Shown here one piece after another: positions 11,302-26,748 of a stretch of 64,000 nt of DNA. This DNA comes from Cognaticolwellia beringensis. Lineage in GTDB: Bacteria; Pseudomonadota; Gammaproteobacteria; Enterobacterales; Alteromonadaceae. The translations under genes were made by a program, and so were the position numbers. How positions within the stretch are numbered: the stretch's first letter is position 1; each line of letters starts with the position of its first letter. The stretch is taken from NCBI RefSeq assembly GCF_002076895.1, contig NZ_CP020465.1:4092001-4156000 (forward strand), written 5' to 3'. The notes under the pieces were generated by a model. It was given only the letters and a program-made list of their open reading frames with translations, did no database searches and was not told the origin of the DNA.

Positions 11302-11546
11302 GGTATTACCTTCCCAATATATTTATAGTTTTATAATTATCTTTTTCAGCTGCTATTTGATTAAATTTTTTGCAACTTACACTAAAGAGTTAGATTGTTT
11401 ATAAAACCGTAAAGAAAATTTGTTTTTTCTTTAAATAATTTCTGCAAAGGTATATTTAATGCTTTTTTACAGCTTTATTGTTAATCCTTGTTTTTAGTAA
11501 CAGAGGTAATAACAGAGCGGATAACAAGGGTTGTCAGGAGGGGATG
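11302..11546 (-). promoter_or_regulatory. upstream region of the 850-residue receptor
   Basis: About 245 bp of non-coding sequence between the receptor start and the hairpin following fecR. Its size suggests that the receptor has its own promoter rather than depending only on read-through. No confident ECF motif was identified. Confidence 0.4.
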
Positions 11547-11579
11547 AGGTTTTATCATTCATATTCAATGATAAAACCT
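11547..11579 (-). terminator. hairpin after the anti-sigma gene
   Basis: AGGTTTTATCATT and AATGATAAAACCT are perfect 13-bp arms around a 7-bp loop, about 60 bp after the FecR stop. There is no following T-run, so it may be a processing or mRNA-stability element rather than a full terminator. Confidence 0.55.
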
Positions 11580-11637
11580 TAATACATAACTAAAATAAAT
11601 GTTTTGGCATCTAGAGTTAACTTTTTAAACTAAGCCG

Positions 11638-12675
11638 TTATATTTTTTTAGTGAGTAATACTTTATTTGCACCAAGACGCTCAGACTTCATATTAAATGA
11701 AAGTTCTATTGCTTCTATTAAAGCTTCACTGTCTTTAAGATCAAAACGCCCACTGATTAGAGTCTTGTGTAGAGAAGGGTCCTTTAAGACTATCTCAATT
11801 TCTACATAGCGATTAATCTCTTCAATAACATCAGATAATTTTTCATTAACAAAAATTAATTTTCCATTAAGCCATGAAAGTTCTCGAGCCATATTCTCTG
11901 CTTTAATGTGCGTTAGCGTAGGTGATTGATCGTTAGTTACTACTACTTTTTCACCTTTAGTAATATAAACATCATCTTTATGAATCGTTCCATTATCTAA
12001 GTCGTTAATGTCAGTTAATGTTGTATTGAGTGCCAGTTTTGACATTTTAACTTTACCGTCAGTTACCGTGACTTGAATATCTTCGGATTGTAAATGTACA
12101 ACAAACTTTGTGCCGATAGCTTGTACCAAGCGATCACCAGCATAAACAATAAAGGGTCGACTAGGATCATGTGCAACTTCAAATAAAGCCTCACCTTTGA
12201 TTAATTTAATAATACGTTTATTGTCACTAAACTCAGTTTCAATATGAGTATTGGTATTTAAATATATAATTGAGCCATCATCAAATGTTGCATCCATTTG
12301 CTGACCAATTAATGTAGCATATGAACTTTTTTGCACGTCATTAGGCATTCCTACCCAAAGCAGCAGTGCAACAAAGCTTATACTTGCTGCCAACATAACT
12401 GGCTTAACGATAGGTTGTAATATCGGCCATATAGATACCTTTACTGATGCATCTTTATTATCAATAATCATCAGTATCTCATCCATATCATCCCAGACAT
12501 CGGCCATCGCTTTTAATGCTACTGGGTGCCTTTTATCTGCCGACAACCAAGCCTTCAATTCTTTTCTTGATTGATCAGATAAATTACCATTGTCTAGTCT
12601 AACTAACCAAATAGACGCTTCGTCATCAATCGTATTTAAGGTACGAAGTGGAATTACTTTATTACTTTTATTCAT
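11638..12675 (-). CDS. FecR-family anti-sigma factor
   Basis: 345 residues. The cytoplasmic N-terminal domain (about 17-60, SIWLVRLDNGNLSDQSRKELKAW) is the sigma-binding FecR N-domain. One membrane segment lies near 95-110 (AASISFVALLLWVG). The periplasmic FecR domain follows (about 125-215, ALFEVAHDPSRPFIVYAGDRLVQAIGT), then a C-terminal STN-like fold (about 265-335, LSDVIEEINRYVEIEIVL). It would hold the adjacent sigma factor until an STN-bearing receptor signals. Its ATG overlaps the sigma gene stop by 4 bp, so the two are translationally coupled. The only STN receptor in view is the second one downstream. Confidence 0.93.
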   Translation of the reverse strand: MNKSNKVIPLRTLNTIDDEASIWLVRLDNGNLSDQSRKELKAWLSADKRHPVALKAMADVWDDMDEILMIIDNKDASVKVSIWPILQPIVKPVMLAASISFVALLLWVGMPNDVQKSSYATLIGQQMDATFDDGSIIYLNTNTHIETEFSDNKRIIKLIKGEALFEVAHDPSRPFIVYAGDRLVQAIGTKFVVHLQSEDIQVTVTDGKVKMSKLALNTTLTDINDLDNGTIHKDDVYITKGEKVVVTNDQSPTLTHIKAENMARELSWLNGKLIFVNEKLSDVIEEINRYVEIEIVLKDPSLHKTLISGRFDLKDSEALIEAIELSFNMKSERLGANKVLLTKKI

Positions 12676-13247
12676 TTTGTTTGCTCTTCGCTTGATTGAT
12701 TAAGATGTACCGGCAGTTTGAGTTCATCAACTTCATATCCTTGAGCACAAAGTGACTGTTTGCATTGTTTTAACCCTTGGGCAATGTACTTTTCAATAGA
12801 ACTAACTGATACATCCATTTTATTTGCTATTTCCTTATGACTTAAACAATAGAGCTTTCTTAATAGTATTGCGCGGCGTTGTTTTTCTGGTAATGAACTT
12901 AAGACCTGATTAAAACGCTCAAATTTTAGTTTTTGATATAAGTCTTTCTCAACCGTATTCTCATCGTCATCTTCAATTAATGCATCATCTAATTCTGTAT
13001 GTATTGCTTTTGATTGTTGCATTAACTTTTTAAGCACTAAGTTTCTCGAAACAACAAATAAATATCCTTTTGGGGATTTAATTTGTTGTTTGGCATCAGA
13101 GTCTAAAACTCTAATAAAAGTTTCCTGTAAAATATCATCAACATCTTGCTGCTCTACACTCATCTTCATAATAGAGCGCACTAAACCATCCCTACATGAC
13201 TGGAACGCTGTTAAAACTCTATTGTTCGATTGCTTGTTTACTAGCAT
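12672..13247 (-). CDS. ECF sigma factor, FecI-like
   Basis: 191 residues. Region 2 (about 10-75) has QQDVDDILQETFIRVL, the core-binding and -10-recognition helix. Region 4 (about 110-165) has LPEKQRRAILLRKLYCLSHKEIANKMDVSVSSIEKYI, the -35-binding helix-turn-helix. There is no region 1.1 or 3, as expected of extracytoplasmic-function sigma factors. A short acidic linker and a C-terminal tail are unremarkable. It is coupled to the FecR-like gene and followed by two TonB receptors, the usual surface-signalling arrangement. The likely regulon includes these receptors, which is an inference from context. Confidence 0.93.
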   Translation of the reverse strand: MLVNKQSNNRVLTAFQSCRDGLVRSIMKMSVEQQDVDDILQETFIRVLDSDAKQQIKSPKGYLFVVSRNLVLKKLMQQSKAIHTELDDALIEDDDENTVEKDLYQKLKFERFNQVLSSLPEKQRRAILLRKLYCLSHKEIANKMDVSVSSIEKYIAQGLKQCKQSLCAQGYEVDELKLPVHLNQSSEEQTK

Positions 13248-13577
13248 TTAATGTTTCCGTTAATACGCGCTTTAACTAAAGAGTCTGCTTGTTATGTAAT
13301 CCATAACAATTTTAGACAAAAGATAAGATAACATCCTTTTTATCACAACTTGTATAAATTATAACCGCGTTATATTTCTTTACTTATATTTTTACCCATT
13401 GAATTAATGGATTTAATTGATGATAAACACCACAACGTTAAATGATTTATCTGATGGTAAATAATGTTTATGAATTTCTTAATAAAAAGTTATGGATTAT
13501 CGCACTGACAAACTCTTTAGCGGTATCGGTGAATTAATTTACTAGCACAATAAAAAATTATAACGGTGGAAATTATT
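13248..13577. promoter_or_regulatory. divergent promoter region, ECF sigma gene / putP
   Basis: About 330 bp of AT-rich non-coding sequence between two divergent genes. It must hold promoters in both directions. I could not assign convincing -35/-10 pairs. Confidence 0.4.
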
Positions 13578-15065
13578 TTGGAATTTGAAACACTTTTTTC
13601 TTTAGGTCTTTATTTTAGTGCAATGCTTGGTATTGGTTTGTATGCGTATCGTAAATCAACCAGTGATGTCGCAGGTTATATGCTTGGCGGTAGGAGCTTA
13701 AGTCCGAGTGTTGCAGCGCTTTCTGCTGGGGCATCTGATATGAGTGGTTGGATGTTGATGGGCTTACCTGGAGCGATGTATATTTCAGGTGTTAGTAGTT
13801 TATGGATTGCTATAGGTTTAGTCGTTGGTGCTTTTTTAAATTACCTGATTGTTGCTCCTCGTCTTAGAACCTATACCGAAGTGGCCAATGACTCTATAAC
13901 CTTACCTGATTTTTTTGAAAATAGGTTTAATGATAAATCGCGTATGTTAAGAATAGTTTCATCGGTTGTAATTGTGGTGTTTTTCACACTTTATACTTCG
14001 AGCGGTATAGTTGCTGGCGGTAAACTATTTGAAAGTTCTTTTGGTATAAATTATGAAGTCGGCTTGTATGTTACTGCGGGCGTAGTTGTTGCGTATACAC
14101 TCTTTGGTGGGTTTTTAGCGGTGAGCTTAACTGATTTTGTTCAAGGTTGTATTATGTTTGTTGCTTTAGTATTGGTGCCTATAGTGGCTATTGGTGAAGT
14201 GGGTGGTATATCAGAACTGCATGCAAGTATTAGTGCCATTAACCCTGCATTATTAGATGTTTTTAGTGGTGTCAGCTTAATCGGTATTATTTCTGCTCTG
14301 GCTTGGGGGCTAGGTTATTTTGGTCAACCCCATATTATTGTACGTTTTATGGCGATACGTAGTATTAAAGACATACCAGCAGCTCGTCGAATAGGGATGA
14401 GTTGGATGGTCGTTTCTATTATTGGCGCAATGGCAACAGGCTTTGCTGGTATTGCATATGTAGCTAAAACAGGATTACAACTTGATGACGCTGAAACTAT
14501 TTTTATTGTTTTATCTCAAATATTATTTAGCCCGTTAATTGCAGGTTTTTTATTGGCGGCAATCTTAGCGGCCATTATGAGTACTATTTCTTCTCAGTTA
14601 TTGGTTACATCAAGTTCATTGACTGAAGATTTTTATAAAACATTTTTGCATCGAGACGCTAGCGACAAGCAACAAGTGCTGGTAGGGCGAATTGCGGTAT
14701 TTTTAGTTGCTTTGGTGGCAATTTATCTAGCTTATGATCGTAACTCATCTATTTTATCATTAGTCAGTAATGCTTGGGCAGGTTTTGGGGCGGCTTTTGG
14801 TCCTGTGGTTATTGGCAGTTTATTTTGGAAAGAAATGACTAGAAATGCCGCTTTAGCCGGAATGATAACAGGGGCGTTAACGGTATTGTTGTGGATTTAC
14901 GTGCCTATTAGTATTAATGGTCAATCATTAAGTTCAGTCATGTATGAACTAGTGCCAGGCTTTATTCTATGTTCAAGCGTTATCTATATAGTAACAAAAA
15001 TAGCCCCACAAGATGATGGAAAGGTTTTAGCCAAACATGATGAAATGTTAACGCATCATGTTTAA
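13578..15065 (+). CDS. putP: sodium/proline symporter
   Basis: 495 residues from the chosen TTG; the frame can also start at a GTG at 13566. The TTG has GGTGGA seven bases ahead, and this start aligns with the E. coli PutP N-terminus, while the GTG has no ribosome site. Thirteen transmembrane segments are expected. The TM2 signature SAGASDMSGWMLMGLPGA contains the Asp and Ser known in E. coli PutP for Na+ binding. Other strong matches are GGRSLSPSVAALS, LPDFFENRF, FFTLYTSSGIVAGG and FGGFLAVSLTDFVQG. It imports L-proline with Na+ as osmolyte or nutrient. No putA is in the window. A long stem-loop lies 40 bp after the stop. Confidence 0.95.
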   Translation: MEFETLFSLGLYFSAMLGIGLYAYRKSTSDVAGYMLGGRSLSPSVAALSAGASDMSGWMLMGLPGAMYISGVSSLWIAIGLVVGAFLNYLIVAPRLRTYTEVANDSITLPDFFENRFNDKSRMLRIVSSVVIVVFFTLYTSSGIVAGGKLFESSFGINYEVGLYVTAGVVVAYTLFGGFLAVSLTDFVQGCIMFVALVLVPIVAIGEVGGISELHASISAINPALLDVFSGVSLIGIISALAWGLGYFGQPHIIVRFMAIRSIKDIPAARRIGMSWMVVSIIGAMATGFAGIAYVAKTGLQLDDAETIFIVLSQILFSPLIAGFLLAAILAAIMSTISSQLLVTSSSLTEDFYKTFLHRDASDKQQVLVGRIAVFLVALVAIYLAYDRNSSILSLVSNAWAGFGAAFGPVVIGSLFWKEMTRNAALAGMITGALTVLLWIYVPISINGQSLSSVMYELVPGFILCSSVIYIVTKIAPQDDGKVLAKHDEMLTHHV

Positions 15066-15103
15066 TTTTAAGACTTACTGAATTTTCTATCAGAAAAATT
15101 AAG

Positions 15104-15143
15104 CCCCTAACAGATCTAATCACTGAGTTTTACCTGTTAGGGG
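15104..15143. terminator. stem-loop downstream of putP
   Basis: CCCCTAACAG and CTGTTAGGGG are perfect 10-bp arms around a 20-bp loop. On the plus strand no T-run follows; on the minus strand the stem is followed by CTTAATTTTTC. It may act as an mRNA 3' stabiliser or a weak terminator for putP. Confidence 0.45.
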
Positions 15144-15580
15144 AACAGTACAATAAATTTTCCTTAAGCGACGTATTTACTCATTATTATCAGCAGTGTT
15201 ATTTTTAGTTAAGTTTTAGAATAGCGCTAAATAGAAGGGGGCTTGTACAAGAAATTTAATTCAAATGGGCCTTTGTTTTATAATTTTAGACCTTGCTTTG
15301 ATCATGTATTTAAATCTCTAATGTAGTCATAAAGTTTAGTCACTAGTTCATGGTATTAGATGATGTAATTATAAAGCGGCTGATGGAAAAAGATTCTCAA
15401 CTAATTTCTTAAGTAATTTACCAAGTATTACCTAGCCGCTAAATTTGCATTTCAACGTTTACCATATAAGCTTATATTTACTACTTTATAAGTCAGAAAT
15501 ATGATTTTCAGTTAATAAATATATTTGTAAACGTCAACGATTGGCTGAAATAATTGAATGTTTTCATAGAAGGGAAACTT
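15144..15580. other. gene-free stretch before the barrel gene
   Basis: About 430 bp, AT-rich, without a convincing ORF or repeat. It should contain the promoter of the outer-membrane barrel gene that begins at 15581. Confidence 0.4.
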
Positions 15581-16858
15581 ATGAAAAAAACTAACAATCA
15601 CTTAAACCTGCCTAGTGTAAAGCGATATAACTTGTTTGTACTTATGTCTACATTGTGGATATCTACAACTCATTTCAGTTATGCTCAGCAAATTACTGAA
15701 CCGCAAGCATCAGATAAAACAAAGTATCAACTTGAATTAGAACGACAACACAAAATGCTCATTAAACAGGGAGAAGAAATTAAAAATTTAAAACGTTTGA
15801 TTCAAAATCAACGTGCTAAAAAAGAACAAAAAAATACCAATTCTCCCCGTAAACCATCAAAAAATAAAGTTACCAAGAAAAATAACAAAGCCAATCCTAA
15901 AGTTGTTAATAAGCCTGTAGGCAAAGCGCCACCTAAAACATCAACACGTATTGATGTAGCTTCCATACCTAAATTAAGTACTAATATTAGCGGTGTGCTG
16001 ACAAAGGCAGGTACTTTAATCGTTGAGCCAAGAATAGGCTATTCGTATACAGATACTAACCGAGTATTTCTAGATGCATATTCATTTCTTCCTGCACTAG
16101 TGGTGGGTTTAATCGATCTTAGAGAAATAAAACGCCATACCGTTATTGGCAGTCTCGGTACTCGATATGGTTTGACTGATCGATGGGAAGTCGACCTCAA
16201 ACTTTCTTACGTTGGCCGTAATGACAGTCAACGCTCTCGTCCTGTAAGTGTTGGGGTTAGTGAAGACGAAATATTTACAGCAAGTGGTAGTGATATAGGT
16301 GATATAGAGCTGTCAACACGATACCAACTGAATTCTGGGCTAGATGGCGGAGCAATTTATGTTTTTAATCTAGTTGCCACGGTGCCTACAGGTACAAGTC
16401 CATTCGATGTTGATTATGTAGAATCAACGCCTGGAGCTGTTTTTCCTACAGAGTTACCAACAGGATCAGGATATTTCAGTGTTCAACCTAGTTTAACTGC
16501 TATTTATCCAACAGACCCTGGCGTACTTTTTGGTAATATAAGCTATGGTAATAATTTAGGCACAGATGAAGATGTAGGCCGAGTCAATCCAGGTGATAGC
16601 ATAGGGTTAAGCTTTGGCTTAGGACTGTCGTTAAATGAACGCACTTCTATGAGTTTAAGTTACTCACATAAACATGTATTAAAATCTAAAATTGATGACG
16701 TTAAAATTGATGGTAGTGAGCTTGATATTGGGCAATTGGTTATTGGTTTTTCATTCAATTATTCCCAACAAACCAATATTAATTTATCACTAAATATTGG
16801 TGTTACAGATGATGCACCCGATGTTCGATTAAACTTCAGGGTTCCAATGGTGTTTTAA
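15581..16858 (+). CDS. FapF-like outer-membrane beta-barrel with N-terminal coiled coil
   Basis: 425 residues from the ATG preceded by GAAGG; a weaker ATG lies nine codons upstream. A signal peptide ends near residue 36 (HFSYAQQ). Residues about 48-85 are a charged coiled coil (YQLELERQHKMLIKQGEEIKNL), 86-122 a Lys/Asn/Pro-rich linker, and about 130-425 a beta-barrel ending MVF, with Phe last as in outer-membrane proteins. The barrel resembles the MetA-pathway-of-phenol-degradation family, to which the amyloid secretion pore FapF also belongs; FapF too has an N-terminal periplasmic coiled coil. It is convergent with four minus-strand genes for secreted proteins including a C39 peptidase, so I infer it is the export pore for the repeat protein. 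A generic transporter role is the alternative. Confidence 0.7.
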   Translation: MKKTNNHLNLPSVKRYNLFVLMSTLWISTTHFSYAQQITEPQASDKTKYQLELERQHKMLIKQGEEIKNLKRLIQNQRAKKEQKNTNSPRKPSKNKVTKKNNKANPKVVNKPVGKAPPKTSTRIDVASIPKLSTNISGVLTKAGTLIVEPRIGYSYTDTNRVFLDAYSFLPALVVGLIDLREIKRHTVIGSLGTRYGLTDRWEVDLKLSYVGRNDSQRSRPVSVGVSEDEIFTASGSDIGDIELSTRYQLNSGLDGGAIYVFNLVATVPTGTSPFDVDYVESTPGAVFPTELPTGSGYFSVQPSLTAIYPTDPGVLFGNISYGNNLGTDEDVGRVNPGDSIGLSFGLGLSLNERTSMSLSYSHKHVLKSKIDDVKIDGSELDIGQLVIGFSFNYSQQTNINLSLNIGVTDDAPDVRLNFRVPMVF

Positions 16859-16905
16859 CTCAATATTTAAAACCTTCTATATAAATAAATTAATTACCCG
16901 AATGG

Positions 16906-17406
16906 CTATAGGCAGTGAGTACATATTGAGTGCAAATTATAAAATTGATCATTATTTGGCGTTAAATTGATATTATTTAAGTTTTTAATATCAATGTTGA
17001 TGTTATTGATGGTTTGTAGTGTTTGGTTGTCGAGATCATTTTGAATAATTGACTGGAATAGGGAACTAGATAACCCTGGTACATTCAATTTTCCATTTTT
17101 CACTATATTATGACTATTTGGTGTTTTAAAATAAGAACTTGCGATTTCTTCTCCATTTTGAAATATGCGTTTTTCAAAACTGATATTAACAATTACACCA
17201 TTCGGTAATATAAATCCGCCACGCGAATAAGCTAATTGAGAGTCTGATACTTTAGACCATTTTTCTGTCTCTAAAGTTTGCACAAAAACTCCATCGCCAA
17301 TGACATCGACGCTACTTGCCGCTGAAACTTTATCTGAACCCGTAATGACGATAAATGTCACTATTATGAGGAAGGTTTTTAAAAGCATGGCTGAGATCAC
17401 ATTCAT
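16906..17406 (-). CDS. small secreted protein of the fibre locus
   Basis: 166 residues, last gene of the minus-strand cluster, 21 bp after the C39 peptidase gene. AAAGGA precedes the ATG. A signal peptide ends around residue 29 (DKVSAAS). Residues about 55-95 carry VSDSQLAYSRGGFILPNGVIVNISFEKR-type sequence: an SDSxLxxxRGG element followed by a strand-rich part ending in FQNGEEIAS. The RGG element resembles the double-glycine sites cut by C39 peptidases. The C-terminus is Asn/Ile-rich and ends in CTHCL, a possible disulphide or metal pair. I do not recognise a named family. By position it may be an assembly factor or a further substrate of the peptidase. Confidence 0.7.
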   Translation of the reverse strand: MNVISAMLLKTFLIIVTFIVITGSDKVSAASSVDVIGDGVFVQTLETEKWSKVSDSQLAYSRGGFILPNGVIVNISFEKRIFQNGEEIASSYFKTPNSHNIVKNGKLNVPGLSSSLFQSIIQNDLDNQTLQTINNINIDIKNLNNINLTPNNDQFYNLHSICTHCL

Positions 17407-17427
17407 GGTTATTTCCTTTAATGAAAA

Positions 17428-18123
17428 TCAAAAATCAATTGCTGAAGGTTGAAGCATATTAAATAATGCTAAACTAGAATGATCTACAGCGAGAACCAAA
17501 TGGCCCTTCACTCTGAGTCTCCATTCAGCTTGAGATTGGTAATGATTAGATGCAATGTCCTTTTTGTCCTGAATAACAAACAAAATTCTATTATTCCACA
17601 CCTCTTCAAATTTTGATCTGCTATAAACTTTAATGCCAACGGCAGGGTCACCAATTAACACTTCGTTTTCATCAATGCCTTTAATAATAACAAAGTGCAT
17701 ATAACCTTTATTATTAATAATAGTTATGGCCGGAATTTCAGCTTTTGCAAGCTGGTTTAAACTAATTTTAAATCCATTAGAGTTATAACCTCTACGTGAT
17801 AAATAATGTTTCATATCTAATAATGAAAAGCCATTCTGTTGTATTTTTGGTTGATCACCATTGCTATACATGTCTTTAAAAACCATGAATTCATCTACAA
17901 CATCATCATAATGAAAAGACAGTAAACTTGCTAAAGTAGCAGAGCCACAACTAAAGTCGTACTGCTGCTTATATATAGTTTTGAAGCGTAATTCCGTGAT
18001 ACTTGAAATATTTATTGAAAAATCGCCACCACTGAAACCACCACCCAAATTAACTGTGCCAGCCTGTGCAGGAGGCATTAGTAGTATTAACGACAAAATT
18101 ACCGTAAATATTATACGCATCAT
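17428..18123 (-). CDS. periplasmic C39-family (FapD-like) cysteine peptidase
   Basis: 231 residues with a signal peptide (ends PPAQAGT). The C39 fold spans about 50-180. The oxyanion Gln and nucleophile Cys are in QQYDFSCGSATLASLL, the catalytic His in KGYMHFVIIKGI, and the Asp in VLIGDPAVGIKVYSR. There are no ABC or membrane domains, so it is a stand-alone exported peptidase like FapD of Pseudomonas amyloid operons, unlike bacteriocin exporters. The gene starts 8 bp after the preceding small secreted protein gene and is followed by another, so all are co-transcribed. Both neighbours contain GG motifs that could be its cleavage sites; this is inference. A C-terminal tail of about 45 residues has no known match. 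Confidence 0.85.
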   Translation of the reverse strand: MMRIIFTVILSLILLMPPAQAGTVNLGGGFSGGDFSINISSITELRFKTIYKQQYDFSCGSATLASLLSFHYDDVVDEFMVFKDMYSNGDQPKIQQNGFSLLDMKHYLSRRGYNSNGFKISLNQLAKAEIPAITIINNKGYMHFVIIKGIDENEVLIGDPAVGIKVYSRSKFEEVWNNRILFVIQDKKDIASNHYQSQAEWRLRVKGHLVLAVDHSSLALFNMLQPSAIDF

Positions 18124-18131
18124 GGTTACCT

Positions 18132-18494
18132 TTAATCTGGAGATATTGTAATAGTAATGATAGTCGAGTCTTGAATGATGACATTATTCCCCGTATTTTG
18201 GATGATTGAAAATATACCACTTGCGTCATTAAATGAGCCTTGATCTATGATGTTATATCCTGTGACACTGTTACTAGCATCATTGTTGGTAAGTACGGCT
18301 CCTAAGTCGGCATTGCTAGTAACATCGACAACTCCACCAAGGCCACGTATTTGATCCAACTCTTCAAGCATTACAGGTGCAACATCAAGAATCACAACAT
18401 CTACAACAACATCTTCGGCAGAGGTCTTGTTACTTATTATCATTAACAAGCTAAACCATAATAATAGATGAATACTTTGATATAGGTTTTTCAT
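18132..18494 (-). CDS. small secreted fibre-related protein with GG motif
   Basis: 120 residues from the ATG at 18494, which has AAGGA ahead; an in-frame ATG 18 codons earlier overlaps a hairpin and gives no signal peptide. The signal peptide ends near residue 26 (KTSAED). Residues 43-54 read LEELDQIRGLGG, resembling a double-glycine leader. The C-terminal half (about 85-110, SFNDASGIFSIIQNTGNN) matches the last 35 residues of the upstream Ser-Asp-Asn repeat protein position by position (FN, GI, QN, G, N, Q). The shared module suggests it is a minor subunit or nucleator of the same fibre, comparable in role to FapB. It is followed by the C39 peptidase after 8 bp. Confidence 0.75.
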   Translation of the reverse strand: MKNLYQSIHLLLWFSLLMIISNKTSAEDVVVDVVILDVAPVMLEELDQIRGLGGVVDVTSNADLGAVLTNNDASNSVTGYNIIDQGSFNDASGIFSIIQNTGNNVIIQDSTIITITISPD

Positions 18495-18511
18495 AGCACT
18501 TATCCTTATAG

Positions 18512-18541
18512 AAAGTTGCTGACAATATTGCCAGCAACTTT
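18512..18541 (-). promoter_or_regulatory. intercistronic hairpin after the repeat-protein gene
   Basis: AAAGTTGCTG and CAGCAACTTT are perfect 10-bp arms around a 10-bp AT-rich loop (itself CAATATTG-like), between the repeat gene and the small secreted gene. No T-run follows on the minus strand. It is well placed to protect the upstream mRNA or partly attenuate, giving more major subunit than downstream proteins. Confidence 0.5.
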
Positions 18542-18581
18542 TTAACATAACGTCATATAAACCTAAATGATGTCCACATCA

Positions 18582-20294
18582 TTATTGATTTACATTAACA
18601 TTCCCTTGTAGTGATATTTGTTGTTGCGTTAAAGCATTAGCACCAAGGTTTTGCACATTTTGGTTAATACCAGCACTACCATTAAAGGTATCTGTCATAT
18701 TGTTGCTAGTTGCTATTGTAGAAGCACCATCGAAGTTATATGCCAAGGTATTTTGAGTTACAGTTCCCATTAATGTAGATTCATTAACGCTATAGGTTGT
18801 AGTAGCGGTACCGCCATTATTTGCTGAAGATGTTCCCCATCCATCAGCCCACGCTGAACTGTTATCGCTATTGTCACTATTGTCGCTATTGTCACTGTTA
18901 TCAACATTGGCAGTACTGCCATTATTCGCTGAAGCTGAGTGATCACTTGCATCAGCAAAACTGTTGTCACTGTTATCTGAGTTATCACTATTATCGCTGT
19001 TATCTACATTAACAGTACTACCATTAGTGGCTACGGCAGACCCCATTCCACTCGCATTAGCCATGCTATTGTCAGAGTTATCCGAATTATCCGAATTATC
19101 TGAATTGTCACTATTATCACTGTGATCTAGATTAACCGTACTACCATTGGTGGCAATGGCAGACCCCATACCACTTGCATTCGCCATGCTATTATCCGAG
19201 TTATCAGTATTGTCAGAGTTATCACTGTTATCAGAATTATCACTGTTATCAGAGTTGTTGCTGTTATCTGAGTTATTGGTGTTATCTGAATTATCTGAAT
19301 TGTCGGAGTTATCGCTATTATCTGAGTTGTTACTGTTATCGTCGTTATCAGCAGTACTGTTATCGGAATTATTACTATTATCCGAGTTATTGCTGTTGTC
19401 GTCGTTATCAGCGGTACTGTTATCGGAGTTGTTGCTGTTGTCCGAATTGTTACTGTTGTCGTCGTTGTCAGCGGTACTGTTATCGGAATTGTTGCTGTTG
19501 TCCGAGTTATTAGTATTATCTGAGTTATCCGAACTATCAGAATTATCACTGTTGTCAGAATTGTTGCTGTTATCAGAGTTATTACTGTTGTCGTCGTTAT
19601 CAGCGGTACTGTTATCGGAGTTATTACTGTTGTCGTCGTTATCCGCGGTGCTGTTATCGGAATTGTTACTGTTGTCCGAGTTATTAGTATTATCTGAGTT
19701 ATCCGAATTATCAGAACTATCACTGTTATCAGAGTTGTTACTGTTGTCGTCGTTATCAGCAGTGCTGTTATCTGAATTGTTGGTATTATCAGAATTATCA
19801 CTGTTATCGGAGTTGTTACTGTTGTCGTCGTTATCAGCAGTACTATTGTCAGAGTTATTGCTGTTATCGTCGTTGTCAGCAGTACTATTATCTGAGTTGT
19901 TGGTGTTATCTGAGTTATCCGAATTATCACTGTTATCACTGTTATCGGAGTTGTTGCTGTTGTCATCGTTGTCAGCAGCACTGTTATCCGAGTTATTAGT
20001 GTTGTCAGAATTATCAGAATTATCACTGTTATCACTGTTATCGGAGTTGTTGCTGTTGTCGTCGTTGTCAGCAGCACTGTTATCCGAGTTGTTAGTGTTA
20101 TCAGAATTATCGCTATTGTCTGAGTTATTAGTATTATCTGAGTTGTTATTACCAGAGTTATCGGTAGTTGCCGTTGAAGTTTCATTTGCAGCAGCTGAGC
20201 CGTTATCCACATCATTGTCCATTGCTAAAGTGGTTGTCGAACTCAGTATTAGGGCAATACTGACTGCTAGTATGTTTTTGTTAAAATATTTCAT
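18582..20294 (-). CDS. secreted Ser-Asp-Asn repeat protein, putative fibre subunit
   Basis: 570 residues, first gene of the minus-strand cluster; GTGGAG precedes the ATG. A signal peptide ends near residue 25 (TTLAMDN). From about 38 to 490 it is almost only Asn, Ser, Asp with some Thr/Ala. First come triplets NSD/SDN interrupted by ADNDDNSNN blocks. Then come four longer units with spacers such as MANASGMGSAxATNGSTVNxD, each followed by SDN triplets. The final 75 residues are different: SAGINQNVQNLGANALTQQ and a Gln/Asn/Val-rich end, a motif also in the next gene. Highly acidic, no cysteine, no aromatic residues in the repeats. I infer an exported amyloid-like or calcium-binding surface fibre. 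Plus-strand and other-frame ORFs over this gene are artefacts of the repeats. Confidence 0.8.
   Translation of the reverse strand: MKYFNKNILAVSIALILSSTTTLAMDNDVDNGSAAANETSTATTDNSGNNNSDNTNNSDNSDNSDNTNNSDNSAADNDDNSNNSDNSDNSDNSDNSDNTNNSDNSAADNDDNSNNSDNSDNSDNSDNSDNTNNSDNSTADNDDNSNNSDNSTADNDDNSNNSDNSDNSDNTNNSDNSTADNDDNSNNSDNSDSSDNSDNSDNTNNSDNSNNSDNSTADNDDNSNNSDNSTADNDDNSNNSDNSNNSDNSDNSDSSDNSDNTNNSDNSNNSDNSTADNDDNSNNSDNSNNSDNSTADNDDNSNNSDNSNNSDNSTADNDDNSNNSDNSDNSDNSDNSDNTNNSDNSNNSDNSDNSDNSDNSDNTDNSDNSMANASGMGSAIATNGSTVNLDHSDNSDNSDNSDNSDNSDNSMANASGMGSAVATNGSTVNVDNSDNSDNSDNSDNSFADASDHSASANNGSTANVDNSDNSDNSDNSDNSSAWADGWGTSSANNGGTATTTYSVNESTLMGTVTQNTLAYNFDGASTIATSNNMTDTFNGSAGINQNVQNLGANALTQQQISLQGNVNVNQ
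18830..20190 (-). repeat. coding tandem repeat, Ser-Asp-Asn triplets and larger units
   Basis: A 9-bp coding periodicity (Ser, Asp, Asn in varying phase) runs for well over 1 kb. Synonymous codons vary freely (TCA/TCC/TCT/AGC/AGT for Ser, GAT/GAC, AAT/AAC), so the protein pattern is kept while the DNA has diverged. Larger blocks of about 30 residues with ADNDDNSNN separators also recur. Such DNA may vary in length between strains. Confidence 0.8.
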
Positions 20295-20857
20295 ATTGTA
20301 TACTCCACTAAAAATTATTTAGTAACTATCAATCTAATTAAAGATATAAACCTTTAATTTATAGAAGAAAAATAGATACACCTTTAACGTCCATATAAAG
20401 CGTGTATGCATGTATAAAAAGCGTTAACCGACATTTGCGTTAACATATATCTGAATGCAGCTGCTTTGTATTCACAATGAATAGTAGTAGATGGCCAACT
20501 TAAAATTCCATTAAAAGCACATCAAAAAAGACTTAAAAAATACTGATTAAAAGATCAAAATACCTGAGTTTTTAAATGAATCTATAAAATGTGACAGCCA
20601 TCAGCAGTTAAGGAATGTGTTAATAATATTGTAGAGTAGATTGTGTTTGTGGCTAATTTTACTGTCAGCTTTTTTTACACTTTATATTGTTTTGTTAACG
20701 ATGATATTAAGTGAGTTGATTAAACTATTGTATTACTGTTAAAAATTATTTTAGGTATAGGTATTGCTTAATTTTTGAGTGCAATAACTATGAATTATGC
20801 TTTCCTGTGTATTTTCTATGACGATGATGTCAATTAATATTATCAAAGGATTTGAAT
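20295..20857. promoter_or_regulatory. long divergent promoter region of the fibre locus
   Basis: About 560 bp without a convincing ORF between the repeat-protein gene (minus) and the OmpR-type regulator (plus). It is AT-rich and unusually long for this window. It likely holds both promoters and binding sites for the neighbouring regulator and others, by analogy with the long control regions of curli and matrix operons. I could not assign a specific operator. Confidence 0.45.
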
Positions 20858-21667
20858 ATGACATGTTTCCAGCCTAACAATAGTTTGCTCATAATCTCAA
20901 ATGATAGTTTTATTATTGGCTTATTAACGGGCTATTGTGTTGCAAATCATTTTACTCTTAATTGTATCTCTAGCGCTAAGCCTCTGCTTAATAATGGTGA
21001 AAATCCTAATTTTAAATTAATTATTTTTGATCTGCGAGAGTTGACTTCTACCGTCATTGAAGAACATTTGGAATCGTTGAGTAAGATACACAATACATAC
21101 TCCACTCCTATTTGTGCCATATATAATTTGAATAGAATGCCGATTTACCGTATGTTGTCTTGGATAAGTTATTATAAACACGACCTTTTTATTGAAAGAC
21201 TGGATGATTATATTAATAAATATATGATCGATTTTACTCACTTTTTTGATGAAAGAAGGAATTATAATCGTCGCTTAGGATCTGGACGCCGTAAATTATT
21301 AGGCACCATCAATTCTTTTTCATCAAAACCACTTAATGGTTCAGCTAGCTTACCTAATGTAGATGCAACTCTTGAGTCGCTAGGTCCTTTTGAAATAGAC
21401 AAAGATTGTCAAAAAATTTATTTAAAAGGTAAAAACTTAGATCTTACGGCTAAGGAATTTAAGCTTTTTAAGTTATTATCTGAGGATCCAGAACGTGTAT
21501 GCACGAACGAAAAATTGATCACTCATTTATGGCCAAATAGAAAACGTGCAAACAAATCTGATCTTTATCAATACATGCATTTATTGAGAAAGAAGGTCGA
21601 ATTTGACCCAAGTAATCCCTGTTGGATCATAACGATTAAAGGCGTTGGTTATAAATTTCATATCTAA
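20858..21667 (+). CDS. OmpR/PhoB-type DNA-binding regulator with atypical receiver
   Basis: 269 residues from the ATG with AAAGGA ahead; a TTG two codons upstream is less likely. Residues about 8-115 look like a receiver fold with D58 in LIIFDLRE at the phospho-acceptor position, but the usual acidic pair after strand 1 is only ISND, so phosphorylation is uncertain. Residues about 125-155 are basic (DERRNYNRRLGSGRRK). The C-terminal winged helix (about 172-268, LDLTAKEFKLFKLLSEDPERVCTNEKLI ... IKGVGYKF) is the standard OmpR DNA-binding domain. No partner histidine kinase is nearby. It is divergent from the fibre operon, so it is the best candidate for its local regulator; that is inference. 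Confidence 0.8.
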   Translation: MTCFQPNNSLLIISNDSFIIGLLTGYCVANHFTLNCISSAKPLLNNGENPNFKLIIFDLRELTSTVIEEHLESLSKIHNTYSTPICAIYNLNRMPIYRMLSWISYYKHDLFIERLDDYINKYMIDFTHFFDERRNYNRRLGSGRRKLLGTINSFSSKPLNGSASLPNVDATLESLGPFEIDKDCQKIYLKGKNLDLTAKEFKLFKLLSEDPERVCTNEKLITHLWPNRKRANKSDLYQYMHLLRKKVEFDPSNPCWIITIKGVGYKFHI

Positions 21668-21787
21668 ATGTTTCGCTCATAATTTATTATTTCACTCTAA
21701 TATACTCGATGTATTAACTTTTTTACTTCTCAAATATTAAGCTTGTAACTCTAGAGGAAAGATACAGCTCATTAATATAACTCCAAA

Positions 21788-21973
21788 TGGGGATTTAGCT
21801 TACAGGTCGTTTGTAAACCAGAGCCAACGCATTTTATGTTTTATGAAAACTGGCAGACCCGTGAACTAGGGCAAACCCATATGACAAATCAACATTTAGC
21901 TGATTATATGGCTGTAACTGAAGTCTGTGTTGAAGAATTTGTTCTTAGTGAAATGACGTTAATCGGCACATAA
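21788..21973 (+). pseudogene. 3' remnant of an antibiotic-biosynthesis-monooxygenase-like (YgiN-type) gene
   Basis: One frame reads about 60 codons to a TAA: LQVVCKPEPTHFMFYENWQ, then TRELGQTHMTNQHLADYM and EEFVLSEMTLIG. The FYENW and H(M/F)xxxHLxxY pattern is characteristic of the C-terminal half of ABM-domain quinol monooxygenases of about 95 residues. The first half is absent: the frame begins without a start codon and upstream bases do not encode the N-terminal strand. It is therefore a truncated relic. A terminator hairpin at 22053 may have belonged to it. Confidence 0.6.
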
Positions 21974-22052
21974 TAAGTTGCTTGTTGATTTATACGATGG
22001 CTTGTTAAGATTGTTTTAATATAAAGCTAAATAGCCTGCCTATCAAATGTAG

Positions 22053-22082
22053 AAAGCCTGTCACGCAAGTGATGGGCTTTTT
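22053..22082 (+). terminator. rho-independent terminator
   Basis: AAAGCC-TG-TCAC, loop GCAA, GTGA-TG-GGCTTT (two G-T wobbles in the middle), then TTATT. It follows the monooxygenase relic and may also end transcription from the OmpR-type regulator. Confidence 0.75.
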
Positions 22083-22312
22083 ATTATAAAAAATAAAGTT
22101 ATAGAAATAGGATGTTTAGACGATACAGCTACATGCAGCGTTAAAGTCAATAAATTACTGCCTTTGAAAAATCCGCGGTTTTCTCTTCACCTGAATAATG
22201 ACATTTAAATACATAACGCGTAACCGTTAAGAGGCCGTATTTTATTTATTAATATTTTTGCGATTTATTTGATTTTTTAGGCTTTAGGGCACTTACTTAA
22301 AGTAAGCTAATT
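22083..22312. promoter_or_regulatory. upstream region of the large Cache membrane protein
   Basis: 230 bp after a terminator and before the 1432-residue gene; no ORF. It should hold that gene's promoter. No recognisable operator was found. Confidence 0.3.
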
Positions 22313-25300
22313 ATGGAAATCCATATGCCGTCATCAATTATCGCCACTCAGCCATCTTCCAGCCAACCGCGTGTGCGCAGCAGAACGTGGATTTATTTAT
22401 TCCTAGGTATACTCTTTATCGCAGGTTTTGCTTACTTTCGTTTTGTAAATGTACAAACTAGCTTTATTAACAATGATTTTTATCGAGTGTTATACGAAGC
22501 ATCAAATAGATTTAATGAGAACCTAAATTCGCTTAGTAAGATGCATGAAAGTGGTGAAAGCCAAGTAGCTATTCGTTCTTTACTTCCAAGTTATAAAAGG
22601 GTTAAGCGCACTTCTAATGTGGATCCCGTAGTTCCTGATGGCGAATATCGTTATCAAATTAGTGGCCAAGACATATTGGTTTTTACGTCGACCTATAAAG
22701 CTGAGCTTAATAATGAAGATATTGTACCTGAAACGGTACAGGGTTTTAGTCAATATTTATTCGCTAATAAGTCTGGCAAGGTAGTGGCTAAAGGTGGTGG
22801 TGAAAAAACCATATCAATTGTTCAGATGGATGATATTAATCTGCAATTAAAAAAGCAAAGTCAAAAATTCAACATAAACTTTTCCAATGATAAATCCAAC
22901 TCCGATAAGGAGGAAGCTAACTTACCTAGCTATAGCAGTCATGTAGATATGCAACTATCTTACGGTGATTTTCGTATTTTTATATTTCCTTTCTCATTAG
23001 ATACAACGTTATACCAAACTAAAACAAACGAGGTTGGAAGTAAGTTAGAACAGTTATATTTAGTGGGCTTATTACCGAAACAGCAACTCAGCAAAAAAGG
23101 TTCAGGGCAGTGGAATATATCGTTACTGGTTGTGAGCTTAGTTAGTCTGATATTTATGTGGACGTTAATTCGGCTAGTTTTACTACCAGAAAATCATTCA
23201 ATCACCCGGTTTTATCAAGGTTTAAGCCAATTTGCCAGTTACGGTTTTTATATCGTTTTGGTCGCAATGATTTTGTCTTATTTAACGCAAAGTGGGCTTC
23301 AGGCGCACAAAACCCTTACAGCACAAGATCATGCTGGGAAAATAGCCAGACAATTAGAGGGAGAGTTACGCGAAGTATTCAATGATTTATCTCGTTATAG
23401 GGGCTTTTATGCGAGTTTTGTAAACAGCATCAATCAACTGCAAGATGAACACGTGAACCAACAAGACCCGCTACATCCCCTTGACTGGCCGTTTGATGAA
23501 ACGATCACAGAAATAAACAAAGCTTTAATGATTTTGTCTGATGATTTGAAATCAAACTGTCAAGGATGTTCGTTAAACAGAATACCTCCACATTTTTTAG
23601 CTGCTACTTCATGGAAGGCTGACATTGAAGAGCAGTCTGGCATAAATAAAATATCGACTAAAGATGCTGAAAACCTGAAAAAATTAGTCAGCTATCAGGC
23701 GAAACCTGAAGAGTTGGGGGTTATGAGTTTTTTTTCAGGTAAATTAGAAGCAACTTTTGATTATAAAAACGAAGTTTTTAGTTCTAATGCGCCAAGAGAA
23801 GGTAGCAGTAATGATTTTAAGGAACCTAAAGAAGGCAGATGTACTAATTATATTACGCGAAGAGAACAAAGCTGTAATGATTTTAATGCTCCCAAAATAT
23901 TGACTATATTTGCCGCAAATAAGCAAGGGGTAACCAATCTTCCGTCTATTTATTATCAAGAATCAAATTCACGGCCTCAAGCGTTTAATATAAGTCATCG
24001 TAATTATTATAAGCGTGTTAGAGATTATCGTGGTTGGCGTGTTGATTTTTATAATAAAGATATAACAAATTGTGAAAAGGAGGTGAAGGAGTGTAAAAAG
24101 GAAAGCTTTAAAAATATTTACATACAACGTTTACTGAATATAAATGATGGCACAAGAGGCACCACTATTTCAGTGCCGATGCACCAACCTCATGATGACA
24201 TGAATGTTGATATGTCAGTAGCGGGCTATGTATTAGGGGCCGATGTTGTATTACCCTCTGTTAGTCTGTCACCCCCTGGGCCGTTTGATTTAATCAGCAT
24301 GATCGTCGACCGAAATACGGGTGATGTATTATTCCATAGTGATGAAAGCCGTTCTTTAGTTGAAAATTTGTTTTTTGCAGGTAACGACAGCTCAACCATA
24401 AGTCAGTGGATTAAAGCAGGGCTTGATAATTATTCTGGTGCGGATGCGAAACAACTTCAGGGTTTTTATCATGGTCAACCAGGAAAATACACTTTGGCGC
24501 CCAGCATAATAGACAGTTGGGCAATAGTCGTATTTTCACCAAACGATAGTTTAGATAGTTTTATGACTAATCAGTTTATGTACATAGTGATCAGTTTTAT
24601 TTTGGTGCTTGCGTTGAGTTTTGCTATTGCTAATTTTCCAAGGTATTGGCGCACCGCAAGTGAAATTAAACGTAAAATGGCATTGCCGAAACAGCTAGAT
24701 AACAAGCGTATTATGTTAATTTGCACTGCTTTGTTTACCACAAATTATGGTGTGTTCTATATTAGTCAATTACTACAAATAAACAGTAAAGTTGAATACC
24801 TTTATTGGCTTATTCCTATGATAACCGTCATTGTTTTAATGTTTTTTATACATTATTTTTATATCAAACACTTTTCTAAATTTGTTGATACAGATAGCGA
24901 AAAAACAACATTTAAACGTGGTGCTTTGCTTTTTGTTTTGGGCTTTGGAGTCACTGCATGGTTGCACTTTGGCTATTTACAATACACGGGTTCTATGCCG
25001 CTTAGCACCCTTAATTTTAACTACGAACAGCAACGATGTAGTGGCATTAATAAAGAACGTCGTGAACTTACTAATATGGCACTTAAACGCTATCCAAACT
25101 CTGTAACCCAAAAGCGAATTCCACCGACTGAATTATTACAAGTTGGTGAAAAACTCAAAGCCGCTTTATCGACTGAGTATGATGCATGCCAAAAAATATT
25201 AAGTGTGGTGGAACCTAGTGATTATCCAAAGTTAAATACCTTGAATAACACCTTATTTGGTTGGGGTTGGTTCAACACCTATATATTAGCTACTGATAAC

Positions 25301-26611
25301 GATGTGTATAGCGAGCAAGGCGAGAAATTAAAAACTGAAATTGAATCTGGCTTGATTTTTCTATCATTAGTTGTGCTACTTGCTTTGGTTTGGTTATGGT
25401 TTTACTTTAATCGCAAAATTCTCTGGCCAAAAATTTACTGTCCGTCGGGGTTTTTAGGACATATAAATCATTTATGCTCAAGTGTTGCCCATATGACCCA
25501 CGGGCAGCCTGAAGAAAACCTTTTGATTAAAATAGACACGACTCAACTAGGTGGCGTTGGATTAGCGCTGTTAATACGCCAACAGCAGGCAGATGAACAC
25601 TTAGAAGAAAAACTGACTCTCGTTACAGGATTTGATGAACTTTTTAAAATAAGTCCAATTTTGCAACTCTTTTCAAGTCAGAAAACTTATTTACCTAATC
25701 TTAAAATTGATATGCAACGAGACAGTAGTTCAGATTTATTGTCGGTACAAATTTGGGACATTGAGACTTGTTTGGAGAAAGTTAAATTTCGACAGTGTCT
25801 GCTAGATCTTATTATGGAATTAAAATCTTTAACTATATCCAATAAGCTACAAAGTTTTACTATTTATTCTGGTTTTAGGAGTTTACGCCGGGTCAAAATG
25901 AAAGACTCTTTATCTGACATTAACCCGTCGATTCCTGAACATGCAGAATACATGTCTTGGTCAGAGTGCTTGATGGATTTTACTGTTAGTGTGATAGAAG
26001 ATTTACAGCACAACATTGATAGCCGCATGCTAGCTAACGAAATAAAGTATATTCCAGAATTAAAATATTTAAATAAATATGTTAACAAAGCTTTAAAGCC
26101 AGAACGCAGAAAACGTGATTGGAGCTTGAACGATAGTGATTTGTCTGAGTCAGGCTGGGCGACTATTAATTTTATTCTTTTACATGCCGATGCATTATAT
26201 CGCTTTAAATGGGAGTCTTGTTCAGGTTCCGAAAAGGTGGCTTTATATAATTTAGCAAAGAAACATCATCTTAATCCTAGTAACACCGATATGATTGAAC
26301 ATTTAGCCATCAATGGCATGATCAAGGTTAAACATGACTATCTTGAGATTATAAATAAAAGTTTTGCCCAATTTGTCTTACAGGCTGAAAGTAAAGAGAC
26401 TATGCAAGAGCTAGTAAGTATAGGAGAAGCAGGCGTGTGGAAAAACTACCGACTACCTCTAGCATTGTTTATTGTCGTCATTGTAGGTGGTATTGCGCTT
26501 ACTTCTGGTGAGTCTATATTTATCATAATTGCCTCTATTGCCGGTGTATTAGGCACATTAGGCAGCTTAACCAGTAGCGCAAATATGCTAAAAGGGCAGT
26601 TTAAGGAATAA
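22313..26611 (+). CDS. large multi-spanning membrane protein with Cache-like sensor domain
   Basis: 1432 residues; an ATG at codon 5 is an alternative start and neither has a strong ribosome site. Membrane segments appear near 28-45, 267-288, 310-328, 755-775, 800-820, 829-851, 869-890, 1014-1033, 1381-1398 and 1401-1420. Between TM3 and TM4, about 515-750 reads like a double-Cache ligand-binding domain (ISHRNYYKRV; MIVDRNTGDVLFHSDESRS). Residues about 1050-1370 are cytoplasmic and include WDIETCLEKVKFRQCLLDLIMEL and a winged-helix-like end, distantly like regulatory NTPase proteins, but no Walker A motif is visible. No kinase, GGDEF or methyl-accepting domain follows. I do not recognise the family. 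It is monocistronic, between a terminator upstream and a shared one downstream. Confidence 0.75.
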   Translation: MEIHMPSSIIATQPSSSQPRVRSRTWIYLFLGILFIAGFAYFRFVNVQTSFINNDFYRVLYEASNRFNENLNSLSKMHESGESQVAIRSLLPSYKRVKRTSNVDPVVPDGEYRYQISGQDILVFTSTYKAELNNEDIVPETVQGFSQYLFANKSGKVVAKGGGEKTISIVQMDDINLQLKKQSQKFNINFSNDKSNSDKEEANLPSYSSHVDMQLSYGDFRIFIFPFSLDTTLYQTKTNEVGSKLEQLYLVGLLPKQQLSKKGSGQWNISLLVVSLVSLIFMWTLIRLVLLPENHSITRFYQGLSQFASYGFYIVLVAMILSYLTQSGLQAHKTLTAQDHAGKIARQLEGELREVFNDLSRYRGFYASFVNSINQLQDEHVNQQDPLHPLDWPFDETITEINKALMILSDDLKSNCQGCSLNRIPPHFLAATSWKADIEEQSGINKISTKDAENLKKLVSYQAKPEELGVMSFFSGKLEATFDYKNEVFSSNAPREGSSNDFKEPKEGRCTNYITRREQSCNDFNAPKILTIFAANKQGVTNLPSIYYQESNSRPQAFNISHRNYYKRVRDYRGWRVDFYNKDITNCEKEVKECKKESFKNIYIQRLLNINDGTRGTTISVPMHQPHDDMNVDMSVAGYVLGADVVLPSVSLSPPGPFDLISMIVDRNTGDVLFHSDESRSLVENLFFAGNDSSTISQWIKAGLDNYSGADAKQLQGFYHGQPGKYTLAPSIIDSWAIVVFSPNDSLDSFMTNQFMYIVISFILVLALSFAIANFPRYWRTASEIKRKMALPKQLDNKRIMLICTALFTTNYGVFYISQLLQINSKVEYLYWLIPMITVIVLMFFIHYFYIKHFSKFVDTDSEKTTFKRGALLFVLGFGVTAWLHFGYLQYTGSMPLSTLNFNYEQQRCSGINKERRELTNMALKRYPNSVTQKRIPPTELLQVGEKLKAALSTEYDACQKILSVVEPSDYPKLNTLNNTLFGWGWFNTYILATDNDVYSEQGEKLKTEIESGLIFLSLVVLLALVWLWFYFNRKILWPKIYCPSGFLGHINHLCSSVAHMTHGQPEENLLIKIDTTQLGGVGLALLIRQQQADEHLEEKLTLVTGFDELFKISPILQLFSSQKTYLPNLKIDMQRDSSSDLLSVQIWDIETCLEKVKFRQCLLDLIMELKSLTISNKLQSFTIYSGFRSLRRVKMKDSLSDINPSIPEHAEYMSWSECLMDFTVSVIEDLQHNIDSRMLANEIKYIPELKYLNKYVNKALKPERRKRDWSLNDSDLSESGWATINFILLHADALYRFKWESCSGSEKVALYNLAKKHHLNPSNTDMIEHLAINGMIKVKHDYLEIINKSFAQFVLQAESKETMQELVSIGEAGVWKNYRLPLALFIVVIVGGIALTSGESIFIIIASIAGVLGTLGSLTSSANMLKGQFKE

Positions 26612-26681
26612 TCAAAGGCAGATAAAAAAGTTAGTTATTATGATTTCATTCGAACATTTTATGTGAATTTTGGCTATAAAA

Positions 26682-26717
26682 AATCCCCTGTATTTGTTGT
26701 GACAACTACAGGGGATT
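26682..26717. terminator. bidirectional terminator between convergent genes
   Basis: AATCCCCTGTA and TACAGGGGATT are 11-bp arms, extended by GTTGT/ACAAC inside. A-rich sequence (TAAAAAATCC) flanks one side and TTGCTATTTTT the other, so it can end transcription both from the Cache protein gene and from the CstA-type gene. Confidence 0.85.
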
Positions 26718-26748
26718 GCTATTTTTATCGCGAGTAAATTCGCTGTAT

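Follow-up and report, generated by a model that had tools for sequence, protein, structure and literature searches.

A probable Fap-related fibre secretion and assembly locus in Cognaticolwellia beringensis, and where FapD may cut FapE

Amyloid secretion by the Fap system of Pseudomonas (fapABCDEF) requires the activity of FapD, a stand-alone periplasmic C39 peptidase, and the substrate and cut site of FapD are the question addressed here. According to the accessible sections of a 2017 study (PMC5557850), the catalytic Cys of FapD is required for secretion of FapC, and FapE alone was without peptides in its first ~70 residues in mass spectrometry; those sections describe Fap proteins as lacking canonical C39 sequences and the FapD target as unclear, note GG and GA motifs in FapE, and propose FapE (or FapF) as the FapD substrate. 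A 2025 review, in the part available, names FapE and FapF as the proteins that FapD is thought to process (PMC12822426). The FapD and FapF models match larger families (PMC3792158, accessible text), and fapD and fapF homologues lying side by side in five further phyla have already been noted (PMC6173800, accessible text). Two other described systems are related: the Acinetobacter-type Fil system has a C39 peptidase (FilB) and a FapF-superfamily barrel (FilC), and the Neisseria nap island, as described in the available part of PMC11798529, pairs a C39 peptidase (NapP) and a FapF homologue (NapF) with double-glycine peptide substrates. Here we describe a six-gene locus of Cognaticolwellia beringensis (assembly GCF_002076895.1, contig NZ_CP020465.1, positions 4,092,001 to 4,156,000; this stretch of 64,000 nucleotides is referred to as the window, and coordinates are given within it). 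We consider it likely that the locus is a Fap-related fibre secretion and assembly system, forming a branch beside canonical Fap, and the comparison of the two types points to where FapD probably cuts.

A first-pass annotation of the window had proposed six open reading frames (ORFs) as a Fap-related export and assembly locus, and each was found where it had been placed. A FapF-like outer-membrane protein is encoded on the forward strand (15581..16858). The reverse strand carries smallA, a FapE-like secreted protein (16906..17406), a stand-alone, periplasmic, FapD-like C39 peptidase (17428..18123), smallB, a short secreted protein (18132..18494), and a Ser-Asp-Asn repeat protein, the predicted major fibre subunit (18582..20294). 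A divergent winged-helix regulator follows on the forward strand (20852..21667; ATG at 20858, preceded by AAAGGA). The smallB ORF as called spans 18132-18548 and has 138 residues, but the internal ATG at 18494, giving 120 residues as in the congener G008, is the more likely start. Signal peptides were judged by eye from the sequence, without a signal-peptide program. Pfam recognised Phenol_MetA_deg in the barrel protein (2e-5), Peptidase_C39 (2.2e-21) and, in the regulator, Trans_reg_C (1.3e-18), and gave nothing convincing in smallA, smallB or the Ser-Asp-Asn protein. The gene order, repeat proteins followed by C39, FapE and FapF, is that of Pseudomonas Fap. The barrel gene is convergent in the window, although separation of fapF is also a known variation of Fap systems, and no FapA-like gene was noticed among the window ORFs, no FapA model having been used; fapA is often absent from Fap systems (both in the accessible text of PMC3792158).

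The barrel protein is a FapF homologue by sequence, by its match in the PDB and by fold. In NCBIfam it matched FapF (8.2e-44, 150 bits against a cut-off of 700) and FilC (7.1e-17, 62 bits). FapF was the only PDB protein matched at E<=0.01 (best entry 5o67, E 4.1e-30). A profile of the barrel family matched FapF with E 1.6e-62, and its other PDB match was a weak one to MotB (0.0017) that aligned to the N-terminal part holding the coiled coil. An AlphaFold2 model (mean predicted local distance difference test score, pLDDT, 75.4) comprises an N-terminal helix (residues 13-34) that is probably the signal, a coiled-coil helix (44-85), a disordered linker (87-137) and a beta-barrel (146-425). The protein thus has the N-terminal coiled coil and barrel of FapF while scoring below the NCBIfam equivalog cut-off. 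When the model was searched with Foldseek, the first 18 matches were all FapF chains, with template modelling (TM) scores by target of 0.76-0.84, and the next was the COG4313 channel 4rl8 (TM 0.68-0.69). The proposed relationship to FapF is therefore backed by NCBIfam, the PDB and Foldseek, and the nearest family is FapF, not an unrelated transporter family. In a tree of 61 barrel sequences, with every third seeded locus included, the FapF proteins of Fap loci formed one group (100/99).

The same genes recur in other genomes. From a scan of species genomes seeded with the C39 peptidase we kept the best 80 of at least 430 relative-encoding stretches among at least 594 candidates, so that nearer relatives are over-represented. 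In these 80 seeded loci smallB was found in 77, smallA in 78, a fibre-type protein in 70, a barrel in 75 and all five in 65, a count that leans on itself because the protein models were built from those loci. The order fibre-smallB-C39-smallA was the commonest (58 of 80, and 9 more with two fibre genes). A search with the FapD model covered 369 genomes of the class, 45 of which had a match at 1e-12, none over the cut-off. It yielded 14 further loci (L138-L151) that took no part in model building and were placed in the window type on their score band and gene content, a placement then supported by the tree; smallA, smallB and the barrel were present in 14/14 and all five genes in 11/14. Fifteen other loci (L123-L137) were called Fap by score band and tree, with L123 alone named gene by gene with NCBIfam. 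The smallA, smallB and fibre models had no match in 11 loci of another C39-plus-barrel type. Because the same genes recur in dozens of loci, the gene set is more than chance, and the co-occurrence that the annotation had claimed is borne out.

The C39 peptidase, a protein of 231 residues that is not fused to an ABC (ATP-binding cassette) transporter and appears by eye to have a signal peptide, matched FapD in NCBIfam (8.7e-40, 136 bits against a cut-off of 330) and FilB (2.9e-35, 122 bits). Like the barrel (150 bits to FapF, 62 to FilC), it scores for the Fap member over the Fil member. Among 2022 candidates in the protein database, 1781 relatives were found at E<=0.001. Residues Gln53, Cys59, His143 and Asp159, including the catalytic Cys, His and Asp, were conserved in at least 97 of 98 window-type and in 15 of 15 Fap proteins, so that the C39 is FapD-like with its catalytic residues intact. 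In an unrooted tree of 96 sequences, with several long outgroup branches and with even-numbered loci between L022 and L090 left out, the window type formed its own group (94/99), set apart by a branch in 97% of bootstrap trees, and canonical FapD formed a separate group beside it (98/91). The window C39 thus groups outside the canonical FapD clade, an outcome that the annotation had listed as counting against itself. Its suggestion of a separate subtype is supported. Five further C39 proteins, two of which were scanned and were both best to FilB, stood apart (100/100), as did six C39 domains of ABC exporters (PCAT; 100/97). Members of the tree came from Gamma-, Beta- and Alphaproteobacteria, Geobacteraceae and single contigs of metagenome-assembled genomes labelled Myxococcota and Ignavibacteriota. 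A Fap locus (L127) and a window-type locus (L151) occur together in one genome, G071.

Following its Sec-type signal, smallA carries a double-glycine leader, KVSDSQLAYSRGG (residues 52-64; 17215..17253, reverse strand), whose form in the family is [AV](-12)-S-D-x-E(-8)-L(-7)-x-x-L(-4)-R-G(-2)-G(-1)-F. The alignments, restricted to ORFs of <=260 residues, contained 67 smallA and 80 smallB rows, window included. The pattern [LM]-x3-R-[GA]-G-[FY] occurred in 66 of 67 smallA proteins, the remaining one being without its N-terminus, and in 49 of 49 database homologues of the window smallA; in the loci from the FapD-model search it was present in the smallA of 13 out of 14, L145 being the one in which it was not found. 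Our leader patterns fix Leu/Met at -7, Arg at -3, Gly (or Ala) at -2 and Phe/Tyr at +1, as well as Gly (smallA) or Arg/Lys (FapE) at -1, and because they demand those residues the result is a number of matching proteins, not column invariance. At positions that the pattern leaves free, Asp was found at -10 in 53/66 and Glu at -8 in 41/66; position -7 was Leu in 66/66, and -1 was Gly wherever the motif was found. The motif L/M-x3-R-G-[GRK]-[FY] occurred in 4 of 7983 background ORFs, the FapE genes of L131 and L136 among them, and in one barrel among 407 other cassette ORFs. At 1e-3 the smallA model matched 142 ORFs (smallB and overlapping frames included), 77 of them with the motif. C39 substrates follow the rule L(-12)xxxE(-8)L(-7) before the double glycine, with positions -4, -7 and -12 held in a hydrophobic groove (PMC6363468, accessible text), and the register of the smallA leader fits both the rule and the groove contacts. 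By this register, smallA is predicted to be cut after G64, before FILPNG. Two weak leader-like ...RGG matches (2.1 and 3.6 bits) were also seen in the FapF-like barrel genes of L138 and L145, which agrees with the published suggestion that FapF may be a target of FapD.

FapE bears a leader in the same register, L(-12)-S-D-x-E(-8)-L(-7)-x-x-[LM](-4)-R-G(-2)-[RK](-1)-[YF], followed in Pseudomonadaceae-type FapE by V-[ML]-P. The window-type leader ends in a double glycine and that of Fap in Gly-Arg or Gly-Lys; because the window type has a full double-glycine leader, the register becomes visible in FapE. The leader with Arg/Lys at -1 was present in 24 of 24 FapE proteins. Twelve scored over the NCBIfam cut-off and came from 12 of the 59 genomes in the family of G220, a genome that bears a Pseudomonas 16S probe; under a looser pattern that allows any residue at -1, these twelve still had Arg or Lys only. 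The other twelve were selected by a similar pattern out of the 15 Fap loci. Of the three loci outside that selection, L131 and L136 were seen to have a motif-bearing FapE, and L133 has a 331-residue ORF with the motif. In a FapE profile search, 23 of 25 homologues fitted a pattern, two of the 25 being the L135 and L123 genes again; one of the two that did not fit is the L123 gene in a shortened model, and the other has the leader with Ala at +1. No match in this search bore the name Pseudomonas. Compared with the FapE profile, the leader and mature part of smallA gave E 5.2e-7 and a score of 45.9, against <=17.2 in 40 column shuffles, a match that is limited to the leader plus adjoining residues. 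The NCBIfam FapE model had no match in the window proteins. smallA shares with FapE its position and its leader, with homology that is significant only when the leader region is included.

These comparisons allow a residue-level prediction for FapD. That FapE is a FapD substrate has already been suspected in print, and what would be new is the predicted site of the cut. A search of open PMC papers, without most of the subscription literature, supplements or bioRxiv, turned up no account of the cassette, nor of a leader of the double-glycine type at that position in FapE. Arg or Lys instead of Gly at -1 in all 24 FapE proteins, and C39 substrates that typically end in Gly-Gly, Gly-Ala or Gly-Ser (PMC6363468, accessible text), would fit a leader that merely docks the C39 peptidase or the barrel and stays uncut. 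Such a leader seems unlikely, since secretion is abolished in FapD Cys38Ala and mass spectrometry misses the FapE N-terminus (PMC5557850, accessible sections), and since the smallA leader has Gly at -1 in every case where the motif is found. Four of the 15 Fap loci also encode one more small secreted protein, marked by an ILWDE motif (L123:9366-9785, L124:3198-3533, L125:9185-9499 and L131:4939-5277). In L123-L125 this protein is preceded by a leader-like motif, and the L123 copy has no NCBIfam name; possibly, it is another FapD substrate.

Double-glycine leaders are also a feature of exported peptides. The C39 peptidase and the FapF-like barrel could mature and export smallA and smallB as signals or lysins, in the manner of a bacteriocin and as has been proposed for the nap island, with the Ser-Asp-Asn protein as a surface accessory. 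The leader of smallA and the pairing of NapP and NapF with GG peptides (PMC11798529, accessible text) agree with such a role. The nap peptides, compared here by description only, are cationic, below 10 kDa and promote autolysis (same source). However, a fibre-type gene is present in most window-type loci (70 of the best 80 and 11 of 14), and what follows the leader in smallA is related to what follows it in smallB (score 40.0 against 14.3). Moreover, FapE, a component of the Pseudomonas fibre (PMC5557850, accessible sections), bears the same leader. We therefore give peptide export little credence, and return to a Fap-related fibre system.

The mature Ser-Asp-Asn protein (546 residues, assuming that the signal is cut after residue 24) contains 113 acidic and 0 basic residues, and is 31% Asn, 22% Ser and 20% Asp. 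In relatives the middle tract is rich in Ser-Asp-Asn, Thr or Gly-Ala and is hypervariable, and the end is conserved; the acidic tract is thus probably a hypervariable spacer, a low-complexity element by which the window fibre protein differs from Fap. An alignment of 64 fibre C-termini, built with a pattern that missed 20 loci, has the majority pattern sN.i.dsfng.AGInQ.vQN.G.naL.QQqVsfQGN. The last 40 residues of the Ser-Asp-Asn protein (531-570; 18585..18704, reverse strand) matched the smallB C-terminus (residues 97-138 of the 138-residue ORF; 18135..18260, reverse strand) with an hhalign score of 55.7, the best of 30 column shuffles giving 14.3. Against the FapB/C repeats, the Ser-Asp-Asn C-terminus scored weakly (19.1 against 14.9 shuffled); smallB matched them with E 1.5e-5 untrimmed, and its trimmed C-terminus scored 28.1, against <=22.7 in 30 shuffles. 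With moderate confidence, we suggest that a single diverged repeat of the Fap type forms the C-terminus of the Ser-Asp-Asn protein, and another that of smallB. The view of the first-pass annotation that the fibre protein is unrelated and without FapC-like repeats is then probably wrong, although the several Gln/Asn/Gly repeats of FapC were not found, there being one diverged C-terminal repeat in their place. smallB is a possible counterpart of FapB, the short homologue of FapC: it has one diverged repeat related to the fibre C-terminus, and no NCBIfam FapB match. smallB also has a degenerate leader (PVMLEELDQIRGLGG; 18333..18377, reverse strand), whose strict motif occurred in 51 of 80 smallB proteins against 25 of 2533 background ORFs; a looser pattern (77/80) gave spurious matches, and the strict one was used instead. 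An AlphaFold2 model of smallB was poor (pLDDT 60.8) and was discarded as evidence. A C-terminal CTHC of the window smallA, considered as a possible counterpart of the CxxC of FapB/C, was dropped, as it is missing from four other Colwellia rows.

The composition of the Ser-Asp-Asn protein raises the possibility of a polymer that is adhesive or cation-binding and not amyloid, secreted by the same route, in which the acidic tract is the functional part (binding calcium or mineral, or forming a cryoprotective gel) and no cross-beta core exists. The 113 acidic and 0 basic residues would suit such a polymer, as would the single repeat per window subunit, FapC usually having three (with exceptions both ways), and the Thr- or Gly-Ala-rich tract of other taxa. 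Yet the part conserved across taxa is the C-terminal repeat and not the tract, and a FapB with a single repeat is known from Vibrio (PMC3792158, accessible text, for the repeat numbers). This alternative seems rather improbable to us.

If the locus is indeed a Fap-related fibre system, its exported parts would enter the periplasm by Sec. From smallA, the FapE-like protein, and perhaps from smallB, the C39 peptidase would take off the second leader, the double-glycine one, and leader removal may license or anchor secretion. The Ser-Asp-Asn protein and smallB would stay unfolded and leave through the FapF-like barrel, presumably a trimer, with its coiled coil as a guide. On the outer side, the core of a fibre, which we infer to be amyloid, would form by stacking of the single C-terminal Fap-type repeats, and the variable acidic tract would hang off it as a charged spacer or brush; the fibre may have a role in biofilms.

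This reading draws on gene content, FapF and FapD homology, the barrel fold, conservation of the cassette and of the leader, the sharing of the leader with FapE and the catalytic residues, all computed here. Several results weigh against it. Both NCBIfam scores lie far below the curated cut-offs (150 of 700 bits for FapF, 136 of 330 for FapD), and the NCBIfam FapB, FapC and FapE models do not match the window proteins; in the control locus L123, a distant Fap locus, FapB, FapC, FapD, FapE and FapF were all matched, also below cut-offs. A hidden Markov model (HMM) of 36 Fap repeats, which matched only 5 smallB ORFs in a set of 6176 ORFs, detected no significant repeat in either window protein, and the repeat homology therefore rests on profile-profile comparison. 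The part of smallA after the leader does not match FapE significantly (15.7 against a shuffled maximum of 16.0), the window's own smallA leader deviates, with Gln at -8 and Ser at -4, and the barrel tree splits the window type (2 changes; 0% of bootstrap trees with 1). The fibre itself is a prediction from the genes. Whether the window branch is named Fap is a matter of definition, since it has the FapF and FapD homology and lacks a multi-repeat FapC and membership of the FapD group. Nevertheless, we judge the Fap-related reading to be likely, with the FapF-like barrel, the FapD-like C39 and the wide co-occurrence in its support, and the results suggest that secretion of the Fap kind extends more widely, and tolerates more varied fibre chemistry, than canonical models reveal. 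A broader proposal, for which we see about even chances, places Fap as a single branch within a larger superfamily of fibre exporters that work in two steps, Sec first and a periplasmic C39 second. The smallA leader would then be an ancestral or parallel form of the FapE N-terminus, FapD would cut FapE after L-S-D-x-E-L-x-x-L-R-G-[R/K] and before [YF]-V-[ML]-P, and the fibre of the window branch would consist of single-repeat subunits with an exposed acidic, Thr-rich or Gly-Ala-rich arm that evolves freely.

Regulators vary between loci. Activators of one family, 40-56% identical to that of L123, were found in 19/80 and 7/14 window-type loci and in 10/15 Fap loci, and in 0/11 loci of the other C39-plus-barrel type; a GNVRE motif, rather than a domain search, is our ground for calling them sigma54 type. 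In place of this activator, the window carries a different, OmpR-like regulator. It had been called an OmpR-type regulator, which holds for the C-terminal half, where Trans_reg_C matches; a receiver domain was not recognised.

The surroundings of the locus differ between relatives. In G008, a block corresponding to window positions 15170..21777, and including the regulator, is kept at 83-91% identity with differing neighbours on either side, so that the six genes behave as one module. On the left, about 4 kb lie between the block and the symporter; a putA gene sits there (L186:2857-6693; NCBIfam PRK11904, over the cut-off) that is missing from the corresponding place in the window. On the right, no match was found past 21777 in the fetched stretch of G008, and the neighbour differs. 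In a close relative, G005, window positions 11001-15158 are present (93.5%) and similarity restarts at 28575, with about 2 kb replacing the 13.4 kb of the window in between. A C39 match of some kind was found in 9 of the 60 genomes searched (own included), and a near-identical one (97%) only in G008. From the G005 and G008 comparison and the patchy C39 matches, we conclude that the locus occupies a variable site and is gained or lost as a unit.

Promoter-like sites (42, against a shuffle mean of 34.1 with a standard deviation of 6.5) and terminator-like sites (2, against 3.4 in shuffles) were not clearly above shuffles. Within the variable site (15158-28575), a protein of 1432 residues (22313-26611) has homologues of ~40% identity in 2 of 16 other genomes (G008 and G010), and matched nothing in Pfam at 0.01 or in NCBIfam at 1e-5. 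An open frame of 391 residues (19147-20322, forward strand), lies antisense to the Ser-Asp-Asn tract, encodes Leu-Ser-Glu-Leu repeats and is in all likelihood a repeat artefact. At 8749-13247 on the reverse strand lies an outer-membrane receptor-like gene, with FecR-like and sigma-factor-like genes upstream, all named from sequence.

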